33,794 nt of DNA from Pseudomonadota bacterium (lineage in GTDB: Bacteria; Pseudomonadota; Gammaproteobacteria; Burkholderiales; JAJZQI01): contig JAJZTZ010000014.1 in the NCBI GenBank assembly GCA_021847305.1, forward strand, positions 1 through 33,794. Direction: 5' to 3'. The translations under genes and the position numbers were made by a program. The notes below the pieces were generated by a model. The model was given only the letters and a program-made list of their open reading frames with translations, ran no database searches and was not told the origin of the DNA. Below are positions 20,726-24,587 of this stretch, piece after piece (position 1 is the stretch's first letter; every line of letters begins with the position of its first letter).

Positions 20726-21142
20726 TCACGCTTCTATGATTTCGAAGTCGTGGGTGATCTCAGCAGTTTTGCCTAGCATAATGGAGGCCGAGCAGTATTT
20801 TTCCGCCGACAGTTTGATGGCACGCTCAACGATTTCCGCTTTCAGGTTGCGGCCGGTGACGACAAAATGGATGTGGATGCGGGTAAATACCTTCGGGTCG
20901 GTATCAGCCCGGTCCGCGCTGATTTCTGCCACGCAATCAGTGATATCGGCACGCGACTTCTTCAAAATGTGGACGACGTCGTAGGCGGTGCAGCCGCCCG
21001 TGCCGAGTAGCACCATTTCCATCGGGCGCAGCCCCAGATTTTTGCCGCCACCCTCCGGCGGACCATCCATCAGTACCGCATGACCGCTTTCCGACTGGCC
21101 GAGAAAGCTAACGTTTTCTACCCACTTGATACGTGCCTGCAT
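20726..21142 (-). CDS. OsmC-family protein (YhfA-like)
   Basis: OsmC-family proteins are small cytoplasmic dimers, many of which reduce organic hydroperoxides with a cysteine pair. The 138-residue product is close to E. coli YhfA (MQARIKWVE start, ASGH/ESGHAVLMDG, RPMEMVLLGTGGC, LHF/IHFVVTGR and SAEKYC). The two family cysteines are present as C51 and C117. YhfA's own activity is uncertain, so peroxide reduction is an inference. It lies 62 bases downstream of the anti-sigma factor on the same strand with no clear terminator between, so it may belong to the ECF operon. Its last 19 codons are duplicated 122 bases further on. Confidence 0.88.
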   Translation of the reverse strand: MQARIKWVENVSFLGQSESGHAVLMDGPPEGGGKNLGLRPMEMVLLGTGGCTAYDVVHILKKSRADITDCVAEISADRADTDPKVFTRIHIHFVVTGRNLKAEIVERAIKLSAEKYCSASIMLGKTAEITHDFEIIEA

Positions 21143-21204: not shown

Positions 21205-21924
21205 TTACACCTTGATGTAGTGCCAGCCCGCTGGCAAGCGGGTTGCAAGTGTGTCAATCGCTGTATCGGTTGTCTGTGCTCCCGGTACCAGATGGACGTC
21301 AATGCCCTGGTCGTGCAGCCGTTCAATACTCTGTTTGCAGGCCAGTAGCTCGAAATTGCTGTAGTTCTTTTGCAGCGATTCGATCTGGGCAACGTAGGGA
21401 GATTTGTCGGTGCGCAGCAGATTCAGACCGTTTTTGTTTGCCAGGAGTGCCAGCTTGAAGGGGGTGTGGTTCTGTTCCGCCTGTTTGAGCAGGTTCTCGG
21501 CCTCCAGCAATCCGGCGCGCATCTTTTCCGGCTGGTCGGAGTCGATGTGCAACAGCACGCGCTCGGGCATGGCTGCGACAGCGAGTTGCGAGCTGATCTT
21601 CTGATCAAGCATGGCGGTATTTGTGCCCGTCTGGTTGAACAGGTGGGCATACCAGCCTGCCAGGGCGCCAACCACAAGCAGACAGCAGGCCGCTACACCG
21701 TGGCGCACCCGGGCGCGCGGCTGTGCGGCGGTTTCCTGGGGCGGAGTGGCGTTTGCATAGGCGTGTCTGACCATGTTTTTGAGCGCGCCGATTTCGCAGA
21801 TGTGCTGCTTGATTTCCGGGTCGACTACGCTGGCGGCGAGCACTCGCTCGCGCTCGGCTTCATCCAGTTCGTCGTCGACAAAGGCGTTCAGGGTTGCGTC
21901 AGAAATATGCGGGTCGTGCATCAT
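21205..21924 (-). CDS. Membrane anti-sigma factor with periplasmic DsrE-like domain
   Basis: The start at 21924 (ATG overlapping the sigma factor TGA, with AAGGAG upstream) gives 239 residues. Residues 1-70 look like an anti-sigma domain (SDATLNAFVDDELDEAERERV) but lack the HxxxCxxC zinc site. A single membrane span follows at about 76-94, and residues 121-239 form a periplasmic domain. That domain (RVLLHIDSD to GWHYIKV) resembles the secreted DsrE-like protein encoded at 22715. The segment FELLAC196KQSIERL parallels VKIVAC108ENTMKAQ, and the ends GWHYIKV and GYAYIRP also align. DsrE-family proteins bind sulfur on a conserved cysteine, so this domain may sense periplasmic sulfur or thiol state (inference). 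Confidence 0.8.
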   Translation of the reverse strand: MMHDPHISDATLNAFVDDELDEAERERVLAASVVDPEIKQHICEIGALKNMVRHAYANATPPQETAAQPRARVRHGVAACCLLVVGALAGWYAHLFNQTGTNTAMLDQKISSQLAVAAMPERVLLHIDSDQPEKMRAGLLEAENLLKQAEQNHTPFKLALLANKNGLNLLRTDKSPYVAQIESLQKNYSNFELLACKQSIERLHDQGIDVHLVPGAQTTDTAIDTLATRLPAGWHYIKV

Positions 21925-22475
21925 TTGACTCTCCTTAAGCGGGGCTCCGTGCGCTGATTTTGCAGGTCGGAAAGATAGCCCTTGAGCTGTTGGCGTGCGC
22001 GGCACAGACGACTCATTACTGTGCCAATGGGGATGTCCAGAATCTCGGCGGCTTCGCCGTAGCTGAATTCCTCCAGATCCACCAGCGTTAATACCTGGCG
22101 TTGGCCTATGGGCAGGCGGGCAACGGCTTCACGCACCCGCTGCACCATCTGCGAACTGCCGTGAATATGCTCCGGCGTGTCCTCGGGAATGAAAATCGAC
22201 TCTTCGAAGTCGGCAATGTCTTCAGCCGGACGCAGGGCGCGGAAATGGTCGCGCCAGCAATTGGTCAGGATGCTGAATAGCCAGCTTTCCAGGGTGGCCG
22301 GGTCCTTCAGTTGACCAATTTTCTTCAGAGCCTTGGCCAGTGATTCCTGGGTCAGATCGTCAGCCAAAGACGGGTCATGCGACCATGACAGGGCAACACG
22401 ATACAGCCGTTGACGGCTGGCCTCGATGCGGGTGGTTAGGTCCCGCTGGCGAAACAAATGGGTGAGTACCTGCAT
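21921..22475 (-). CDS. ECF (sigma-70 family, RpoE-like) sigma factor
   Basis: The 184-residue protein has only regions 2 and 4, as in ECF sigma factors. Region 2 includes HDPSLADDLTQESLAKALKK and ESWLFSILTNCWRDHFR. Region 4 includes LPIGQRQVLTLVDLEEFSY and the helix-turn-helix GEAAEILDIPIGTVMSRL. A good ribosome site (GAGGAG) precedes ATG 22475. The stop overlaps the anti-sigma start, the usual arrangement for a sigma/anti-sigma pair. Its promoter on the - strand has the same bipartite motif as the divergent DsrE-like gene, indicating positive autoregulation. Confidence 0.95.
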   Translation of the reverse strand: MQVLTHLFRQRDLTTRIEASRQRLYRVALSWSHDPSLADDLTQESLAKALKKIGQLKDPATLESWLFSILTNCWRDHFRALRPAEDIADFEESIFIPEDTPEHIHGSSQMVQRVREAVARLPIGQRQVLTLVDLEEFSYGEAAEILDIPIGTVMSRLCRARQQLKGYLSDLQNQRTEPRLRRVK

Positions 22476-22534
22476 GGTCTCCTCGCGTGTGTGGTAGCTG
22501 ATGACTGTTCTTTTGCTGCTGCTTTTTTATTTTT

Positions 22535-22560
22535 GACGCAGCTGGCAGGGATTTTATTCC
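22535..22560 (-). promoter_or_regulatory. ECF-type promoter of the sigma factor operon
   Basis: Read on the - strand: GGAATAA (22560-22554), 15 bases, CGTC (22538-22535). The GGAA-containing -35 and CGTC -10 are typical of ECF sigma promoters. The spacing equals that of the + strand promoter 36 bases away. It lies 60 bases upstream of the sigma factor ATG. Confidence 0.75.
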
Positions 22561-22595
22561 ACATTTTTTGTTGTCACAAAAAATAAATATTTTTG

Positions 22596-22621
22596 GGAAT
22601 AAACGAAATTTCGCTGGCGTC
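22596..22621 (+). promoter_or_regulatory. ECF-type promoter of the DsrE-like/porin operon
   Basis: GGAATAA (22596-22602), 15 bases, CGTC (22618-22621). It is identical in both boxes and in spacing to the divergent promoter of the sigma operon. It lies 93 bases before the ATG of the secreted DsrE-like protein, leaving an untranslated leader of about 85 bases. Confidence 0.75.
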
Positions 22622-22714
22622 CTAAAGGGTATCTGCGTGCAGCCAAACAACAATAATGCGCGTCGAGTTCGATAAGCACCCTAATTAATTATTGCCACCG
22701 TCAAGGAGGAATGT

Positions 22715-23164
22715 ATGAAGATGAAATTCGCAATGTCCCGTTTTGCTGCTGCTGGTGTGCTCTGTGCCGCATTGTTGGCGCCGGCGCTGCCGGCTCTCGC
22801 TGATGGCGCAGCGGCGGGTGGAAAAGAGAAAGTGGTGTTTCAGGTAAGTGAAGGCAATCCGAAGAACTGGAATCTGGTGCTGAATAACGCCAAGAACGTT
22901 CAGGATGCCCTGGGCAAGGACAATGTGGACGTGGAAATCGTCGCCTATGGTCCTGGCATCGGTATGCTCAAATTTGATTCGCCTGTGAATGACCGCATCA
23001 GCGACGCAGTCGACAATGGCGTCAAGATCGTCGCTTGTGAGAACACCATGAAGGCGCAGCACCTTACCAAGGATGACATGCTGGCGAAAATTGGATACGT
23101 ACCGGGTGGGGTCATCGAGCTGATGCACAAGCAACAGCAGGGCTACGCCTATATTCGTCCCTAA
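22715..23164 (+). CDS. Secreted DsrE-like (DsrE/DsrF superfamily) protein
   Basis: This 149-residue protein has a clear signal peptide (about residues 1-29, ending ALPALA) and a DsrE-type domain (about 39-149) with the conserved cysteine C108 in VKIVACENTM. DsrE-family proteins carry or transfer sulfur on such a cysteine, usually in the cytoplasm; a periplasmic member is less common, and its partner is unknown. A strong ribosome site (AAGGAGG) precedes ATG 22715. It is the first gene behind the ECF promoter at 22596, divergent from the sigma/anti-sigma operon whose anti-sigma factor carries a similar domain. The next gene, a porin, starts 46 bases later without a terminator. Confidence 0.85.
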   Translation: MKMKFAMSRFAAAGVLCAALLAPALPALADGAAAGGKEKVVFQVSEGNPKNWNLVLNNAKNVQDALGKDNVDVEIVAYGPGIGMLKFDSPVNDRISDAVDNGVKIVACENTMKAQHLTKDDMLAKIGYVPGGVIELMHKQQQGYAYIRP

Positions 23165-23210
23165 TAGCAAAAAACACACACACAACAAACATTATTAAGG
23201 TGGAGTGAAA

Positions 23211-24587
23211 ATGAAACAGTGGAAACTTAAAACGCTTGCTGCCGTGCTGATGAGCGCGGCGGTTGTGCCCGCCTATGCGGTGAACTGGTTTCAGTTGCAA
23301 GGTACTGAGGCGCCGGGTGCGCCTTCATACAAGCTGTGGGGTTTTGTTCAGCCCACCTATACGACCATTAAGGGGACGCCTGTGACGGGGCTGCAGGGAG
23401 CGGCTGTACCGTTTAATAATCAGGTTTTTCTGAATAACCTGGTGGGGCCGGACCTGGAGCGTTCTGATCAATTCCAATTCTTGCGCGCCCGTCCTGGTGT
23501 GCGGGGTGTCATTCCCGGGACAGATGCGAAAATCAACTATTTTGTCCTGGCCGAGGTAGGCGATAATGGTCTGACTTACAACAGGAATCTCTCCGAGCGC
23601 GGTTTGCATTACCACGTGCCGGCGGCATTCACCGATGCGTCAGTAACCTTCAATTACTTGCCTGGCGCTCGTATTCGCGCAGGTTTGTTTAAGCTCCCGA
23701 TGGGGGAAGAGGCCTTGCAGGGTATTCAGGCCATGACTTACATCAACTATTCCAATGCGACAGATGTGCTGCTCAACGAGCGTTTCCTGCGTTTTTCTAA
23801 CGATCCGAAGGCTCCTGCGGCACCCACCGGCAGCGTGCTGAAGTCTGCAGACCTGATTGGTCCAGTGGGCGGCTTCCGCGATGTCGGTGTCGAAGCGTTT
23901 GACTGGTTTAATTTTGGCCGCTGGGAATATGCTTACGCTTTCATGGCCAGTCAGGGTAATGGTATTGAGTGGACTAATGGTACCGGTTCACTGGATCTGA
24001 CCGCCCGATTGCAGGCTTCGTATGTGTTTGAGGGACGCGGGCCGACCCGTCAGGATGTGACCTTCTACATGTGGGAGCAGGATGGTGACCGGTCGTTTAA
24101 TGGCCAAACTGTCGATCGCATGCGCCGCGGCGCCGGCTTCAAGTTCGCTCGAGGGGCGTGGCGCGCCAGTGCCGAATATATTGATGCGCGTGGCATGATC
24201 TGGGGTCAGCCTTCACCGCAGTTTGTCGATATTTCGGCTGCCACGAATGTGGATCCGGTGCAAACGGTGGGCCCCAGCAGTACAGCGAATGGTTATTACG
24301 TTGATTTGGGCTGGAAGTTCCATAAGAAATGGGAGCTTGACTGGCGTTACGATGAACTTAATCGTTTCACCGACTCGCCGGTGGATGAGCGGATTCAGAA
24401 GACCTACACCTATGGTGCGCAGTATTTCTACAGTCCGACACTCCGATTTACGCTTAATTATGAAAGACGGTTTGGCTATGCGCCTGGTTTGACTCTGATT
24501 AGTCCGGCCGCCCAGCAAAATAACGTTTCTCAAATTGGTCGTACCTTGGATGACCGCATTAGTTTGCAAGCGACCTGGGTTTTCTAG
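23211..24587 (+). CDS. Outer-membrane porin-like beta-barrel protein
   Basis: From ATG 23211 (MKQWKLKTLAAVLMSAAV) the protein has 458 residues with a signal peptide ending PAYA. The mature protein shows alternating hydrophobic/aromatic strands, many glycine and aromatic turns (KLWGFVQPTY, IRAGLFKLPMGEE), and a C-terminal phenylalanine (LQATWVF), the sign of an outer-membrane barrel. Its layout resembles the phosphate-selective porin O/P group, but substrate cannot be told from sequence. A GTG at 23205 is in frame but less well placed relative to the GGTGGAG ribosome site. It shares the ECF-controlled transcript with the DsrE-like protein, and a terminator follows. Confidence 0.82.
   Translation: MKQWKLKTLAAVLMSAAVVPAYAVNWFQLQGTEAPGAPSYKLWGFVQPTYTTIKGTPVTGLQGAAVPFNNQVFLNNLVGPDLERSDQFQFLRARPGVRGVIPGTDAKINYFVLAEVGDNGLTYNRNLSERGLHYHVPAAFTDASVTFNYLPGARIRAGLFKLPMGEEALQGIQAMTYINYSNATDVLLNERFLRFSNDPKAPAAPTGSVLKSADLIGPVGGFRDVGVEAFDWFNFGRWEYAYAFMASQGNGIEWTNGTGSLDLTARLQASYVFEGRGPTRQDVTFYMWEQDGDRSFNGQTVDRMRRGAGFKFARGAWRASAEYIDARGMIWGQPSPQFVDISAATNVDPVQTVGPSSTANGYYVDLGWKFHKKWELDWRYDELNRFTDSPVDERIQKTYTYGAQYFYSPTLRFTLNYERRFGYAPGLTLISPAAQQNNVSQIGRTLDDRISLQATWVF

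Follow-up and report, generated by a model that had tools for sequence, protein, structure and literature searches.

A DsrE-fold periplasmic domain in the anti-sigma factor of an ECF26-like locus, a candidate sensor of sulfur compounds

Described systems and the locus in the window

A promoter with the elements GGAATA and CGTC has been mapped for the ECF26 group of extracytoplasmic function (ECF) sigma factors in Sinorhizobium meliloti and Starkeya novella, for which sulfite is the signal (PMC3511301, PMC6527743, PMC6180224). A locus resembling these systems was found at positions 21205-24587 of the window, that is, the whole 33,794-nt stretch of contig JAJZTZ010000014.1 that was analysed. It includes genes for a sigma factor, an anti-sigma factor with a periplasmic domain of the DsrE fold and, in the opposite direction, a secreted DsrE-like protein and a porin. 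The locus is that of an ECF sigma factor with a class I anti-sigma factor, the sigma factor having regions 2 and 4 only and the anti-sigma factor being co-encoded. An initial annotation had placed the four genes at the correct coordinates and numbered the cysteines C196 (anti-sigma factor) and C108 (secreted protein) exactly; it also stated that no described system of this form was known.

That last statement was too strong, as both promoter and sigma factor resemble those of sulfite-responsive ECF26 systems. The motif GGAATA-N16-CGTC occurs twice in the window with zero mismatches, once toward the dsrE-porin genes and once toward the sigma gene, supplying both the -35 (GGAATA) and the -10 (CGTC) element of an ECF26 promoter. 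The experimentally mapped promoter of the sulfite-responsive RpoE4 is equal to it, the published rpoE4 site having the same N16 spacing (PMC6180224, PMC6527743). The window sigma factor is 37.7% identical (E 1e-26) to a sigma factor from an unannotated record of S. meliloti pSymA (L249:18903-19508), which is taken to be RpoE6 (ECF26) because the promoter beside it equals the published ecfR6 site. With a profile of the anti-sigma family, the N-terminal anti-sigma domain was matched in the putative EcfR6 and in two other anti-sigma factors. In the putative EcfR6 any second matching segment, near the membrane helix, was weak, and the DsrE profile did not match this protein.

The locus is thus alike to RpoE1 and RpoE4 of S. 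meliloti and SigE of S. novella in having a related sigma factor, N-terminal anti-sigma domain and promoter. The sulfur-compound response proposed here and the sulfur-related targets are also shared with these systems, of which RpoE1 and RpoE4 are autoregulated. It differs in the predicted targets, which are sulfite dehydrogenases in the described systems and dsrE-porin or sox genes here, and in the periplasmic part of the anti-sigma factor, for which an RsiW-like domain is described in EcfR1, 3, 4 and 6 and a DsrE domain is found instead at this locus. The impression is of an ECF26-like chassis that carries another candidate sensor, the likeness lying in the promoter, the sigma factor and the N-terminal anti-sigma domain.

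Three other groups of proteins invite comparison. Within the DsrE/DsrF/TusD superfamily the nearest members are MTH1491 (1L1S) and ST0148 (2PD2), which share the fold and the cysteine position. Known members are mostly soluble cytoplasmic proteins, whereas one of the two copies considered here is secreted and the other is the candidate sensor of a membrane anti-sigma factor. In RsgI-type anti-sigma factors of cellulolytic clostridia, too, the sensor domain and domains of the target proteins belong to one family; they differ in having carbohydrate-binding domains, a polysaccharide signal and unrelated sequence. Lastly, the ArsR-type repressors SoxR and sHdrR, which act with the importer SoxT, also place sox genes under the control of reduced sulfur, and YeiH is strongly thiosulfate-induced in those systems (PMC10451225, PMC12423496, PMC11582611); there sulfur is imported by SoxT, whereas the candidate sensor described here faces the periplasm. 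A search for literature joining DsrE with ECF or anti-sigma factors returned nothing relevant, though it did not cover the ECF reclassification, in which an earlier listing is possible. The DsrE sensor domain appears to be the new element.

The DsrE domain of the anti-sigma factor and its cysteine

Pfam gave no usable DsrE match on the window anti-sigma factor itself, so the resemblance needed a profile test. A single-pair BLAST comparison with the secreted DsrE protein gave 21% identity over 122 amino acids (aa) (E 7e-4, one comparison). Alignment of two hidden Markov models (HMM) with hhalign, one for the anti-sigma periplasmic domain and one for the secreted protein, gave 99.5% probability and E 7.9e-23 over 114 columns, upholding the proposal that the two resemble each other over the whole length. 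C196 and C108 fall in the same column of this alignment, as had also been proposed. A profile of 44 anti-sigma domains, from which the secreted proteins were excluded, retrieved the DsrE-like PDB entries 1L1S (3.9e-14) and 2PD2 (1.1e-6), and the Pfam DsrE family was matched unaided by 14 of these 44 domains.

The predicted structures of both domains contain strands and helices in the same order. With Foldseek, the top four PDB matches of the modelled anti-sigma domain were all DsrE-like (2PD2, 8UJA, YchN 1JX7 and 3MC3), while the best PDB match of the modelled secreted protein was 1L1S with a template modelling (TM) score of 0.86/0.92; 2HY5 and 2D1P were also among the fold matches. As the structure model was built on a four-sequence alignment including secreted paralogues, it is weaker evidence than the sequence profiles. 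Comparison of HMMs and of predicted structures, both suggested by the initial annotation, hence agree on a shared DsrE fold. When the relatives are taken in, it is certain by profile and fold that the anti-sigma periplasmic domain belongs to the DsrE superfamily and is homologous to the secreted DsrE protein.

C196 is invariant in all 47 aligned anti-sigma factors, and exactly one periplasmic cysteine is present in 46/46. The cysteine at the C108 position is likewise invariant in 34/34 secreted DsrE domains, each of which has exactly one, and in the remoter DsrE-like proteins found in the partner slot a cysteine is kept within FCGNS or VCNNT. C196 occupies the conserved cysteine position that carries sulfur in DsrE proteins. 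The zinc motif HxxxCxxC was found in the cytoplasmic domain of none of 46 anti-sigma factors, which by this motif would place the family outside the zinc anti-sigma factors (ZAS).

The cysteine bears on the reading that the DsrE domain is merely a stable periplasmic cap, the signal being regulated proteolysis set off by porin misfolding. The porin in the target operon would fit such an envelope-stress switch, and one-helix anti-sigma factors of the same class are often proteolysed. A pure cap would have no need of an invariant cysteine that is the sole periplasmic one in every anti-sigma factor counted, and sox-type targets (see below) are foreign to it; this reading is very improbable.

In an unconstrained tree the anti-sigma domains of one family (f50) group among secreted DsrE proteins, but the proposal of an independent capture of DsrE by these anti-sigma factors was given up, as a single anti-sigma clade is not rejected by the approximately unbiased (AU) test (p 0.63). 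The anti-sigma DsrE domain is much nearer to secreted DsrE than usual in one family (L078, L079, L080 and L144-L146), where the promoter motif stands before TPR-protein and HAD-like genes.

Distribution, promoter motif and candidate targets

Of 346 good genomes in the order, 53 contain relatives, and 66 of the 369 genomes sampled from the class encode the anti-sigma factor at full length. In the order, 36 of 47 related stretches include a homologue of the secreted DsrE protein, of the porin or of both. Another 20 loci, taken from other parts of the class, all have the sigma/anti-sigma pair; a DsrE and/or porin gene is linked in 13 and the motif is present in 17. The neighbourhood is therefore conserved. 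The initial annotation had named as contrary outcomes a lack of structural similarity between the two domains, a neighbourhood without conservation and porin expression independent of the sigma factor; none was encountered where it could be tested. Searches for relatives of the anti-sigma factor on plasmids and of DsrE on viral contigs found none.

Of 48 order-level loci, 43 have the motif directed at the sigma gene, against a background of 0.005 sites per 700-bp stretch, and 30 have it in both directions. A stricter, extended motif searched genome-wide gave about 50 sites in 34 circuit-bearing genomes vs about 4 for a reversed control; in 16 genomes without the circuit there were 3 vs 1. In two genomes (G021 and G149) dsrE is unlinked from the sigma gene, and the sole other strict site in the genome lies 47 bp upstream of the unlinked secreted dsrE, so regulation has outlasted synteny. 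The proposal that the dsrE-porin operon is under the sigma factor is borne out to the extent of this motif. Two loci (L233 and L237) contain two tandem sigma/anti-sigma pairs adjoining each other, each pair with its own motif site, with one DsrE gene downstream and a second DsrE gene plus porin divergent.

Genes behind the motif connect the circuit to sulfur well beyond what the initial annotation had surmised. In three genomes of one family (G123, and by reading G082 and G226) the divergent operon has the order soxY-soxZ-soxA-soxB; in G123 the motif precedes soxYZAB, followed by a DsrE-like gene and a porin, and all four sox products are above the NCBIfam cut-offs. Genome G247 has sites before soxY, before a second secreted DsrE gene and before a YeiH-type (Cons_hypoth698) gene, with soxB in the same stretch, and another YeiH-type gene follows a site in G015. 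In Hyphomicrobium no gene is induced more strongly by thiosulfate than YeiH, which is a candidate exporter of sulfite (PMC11582611). SoxY is encoded by 58 of 66 genomes with the full-length anti-sigma factor vs 132 of 303 without it (odds ratio 9.4, Fisher p 1e-11, uncorrected for phylogeny). Less telling than the sox and YeiH targets are those in the window's own genus, where shared sites precede a solute-binding protein with weak matches to sulfate-, thiosulfate- and molybdate-binding families, a phosphonate-type solute-binding protein and a diguanylate cyclase.

The same targets bear on a general thiol or oxidant sensor, in which C196 would be oxidized by hypochlorite, peroxide or copper and the DsrE proteins would be thiol buffers. 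The single invariant periplasmic cysteine is compatible with it, as are the genes for a DUF255 thioredoxin-like protein that follow the motif in two genomes and the OsmC gene after the anti-sigma gene in the window's genus. OsmC is, however, conserved only once outside that genus, and the sox, YeiH and DsrE targets together with the SoxY association point to sulfur, so that this sensor type is improbable.

The features of the locus are collected in Table 1. The ATG of the anti-sigma gene is at 21924 and its end at 21205, the start overlapping the stop of the sigma gene.

Table 1. Features of the locus, in window coordinates.
Feature	Position	Strand	Support
ECF sigma factor, 184 aa, regions 2 and 4	21921-22475	-	Pfam Sigma70_r2 9.5e-13, Sigma70_r4_2 1.6e-17
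Anti-sigma factor, 239 aa: cytoplasmic anti-sigma domain, one transmembrane helix, periplasmic DsrE domain	21205-21924	-	
N-terminal anti-sigma domain, aa 1-57	21754-21924	-	weak zf-HC2 match
Single transmembrane helix, about aa 77-97	21634-21696	-	hydropathy 1.6-1.9
Periplasmic DsrE-fold domain (candidate sensor), aa 119-239	21208-21570	-	hhalign, PDB and Foldseek matches
C196 codon, sole periplasmic cysteine of the anti-sigma factor	21337-21339	-	
Secreted DsrE-like protein, 149 aa, signal peptide about aa 1-29 (by eye)	22715-23164	+	Pfam DsrE 9.4e-11
C108 codon, sole cysteine of the mature secreted DsrE domain	23036-23038	+	
Porin, Porin_O_P type, second gene behind the dsrE promoter	23211-24587	+	Pfam Porin_O_P 1.6e-13
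Predicted ECF promoter toward the sigma gene, GGAATAAAATCCCTGCCAGCTGCGTC	22535-22560	-	GGAATA-N16-CGTC
Predicted ECF promoter toward dsrE-porin, GGAATAAACGAAATTTCGCTGGCGTC	22596-22621	+	GGAATA-N16-CGTC

An OsmC-like gene (20726-21142, minus strand) follows the anti-sigma gene in the same orientation after about 60 bp. The sister genome has this arrangement too (L010, L009), and L244 contains an OsmC relative, but OsmC was dropped as a further conserved circuit gene, being seen only in the window's genus and one other locus. In the window's genome (L186, contig 171) two more secreted DsrE genes are separated by about 3.6 kb, as also in the sister genome (L187). Elsewhere, diguanylate cyclase genes stand behind the ECF motif in several genomes (L122, L123, L126 and L127), suggesting a possible link of the signal to cyclic di-GMP, and a DUF255 (Thioredox_DsbH) gene does so in two species of one genus (L135 and L136).

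Proposed sulfur sensing and the role of the secreted protein

From these comparisons, the more probable account, held with moderate confidence, is a switch that spans the membrane, senses sulfur and is built on an ECF26-like chassis. On the best reading, the one-cysteine DsrE candidate sensor detects sulfane sulfur or a sulfur oxyanion, and the genes induced are those for Sox proteins, DsrE and the porin. As established for this class of protein, the anti-sigma factor would keep the sigma factor at the membrane. C196 would take up a sulfur species arising from periplasmic oxidation of thiosulfate, tetrathionate or sulfide, as a persulfide, thiosulfonate or sulfite adduct, and a change of shape or cleavage of the loaded domain would release the sigma factor. 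The freed sigma factor would then transcribe its own operon and, from the GGAATA-N16-CGTC promoters, the genes for the secreted one-cysteine DsrE carrier and the porin or, in relatives, sox genes and YeiH exporters. The secreted DsrE protein most likely handles the same sulfur species, and would act on the signal indirectly, lowering it by removal and not through specific contact between the two proteins.

A DsrE protein cysteine can accept thiosulfate from tetrathionate and pass it on to a protein partner, which makes a covalent sulfur signal plausible (PMC4175335). In a more specific version, the DsrE domain of the anti-sigma factor would carry a covalently bound persulfide or thiosulfonate, which the secreted paralogue may supply, and this loading would free the sigma factor. 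The anti-sigma factor would then be the first transmembrane one to be a sulfur carrier in its own right; this version is tentative, with a somewhat less than even chance.

Several observations count against sulfur sensing as proposed. DsrE3A of M. cuprina reacted with tetrathionate only and not with sulfide, polysulfide, thiosulfate or sulfite (PMC4175335), so that the ligand is not readable from the fold. For the diguanylate cyclases and the phosphonate-type solute-binding, DUF255 and TPR proteins behind the motif, a role in sulfur handling is not evident. Phylogeny confounds the SoxY association, and SoxY is absent from some genomes that encode the anti-sigma factor.

The initial annotation had the secreted protein and the sensor domain competing for, or exchanging, a sulfur or thiol ligand. 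Direct feedback of this kind, the secreted DsrE protein docking on the anti-sigma DsrE domain and either holding the switch off or handing over sulfur, would suit two proteins of the same fold with the same single cysteine and a dsrE gene whose regulation is kept even when unlinked. Mixed hexamers are also known for DsrE/F/H and TusB/C/D, 2HY5 and 2D1P being among the fold matches noted above, and DsrE3A forms a heterocomplex with TusA (PMC4175335). Divergence of the sensor domain, however, tracks that of the sigma factor, and no co-divergence of sensor and DsrE partner was detected beyond it (partial r 0.05, p 0.29). Moreover, distant DsrE subfamilies are interchangeable in the partner slot, and in G123 and G082 the sensor is present without a close secreted paralogue, though a remote DsrE-like protein lies near their sox genes. 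Together these three observations lean to a shared ligand and away from specific contact; competition or exchange between the two proteins is left unsupported, and direct feedback, while possible, is unlikely.

The sensing of external sulfur by regulators was called poorly understood in a 2024 paper (PMC11582611). The anti-sigma factors described here form a widespread family, found across many sulfur oxidizers, with a periplasm-facing candidate sensor and a single cysteine, which probably senses sulfur compounds outside the cytoplasm directly. A role is also suggested for the common, uncharacterized pairing of secreted DsrE proteins with a porin. If the covalent-loading version is true, the anti-sigma factor with its sulfur-loaded DsrE domain would be a direct sensor of external sulfur for sulfur-oxidizing bacteria.

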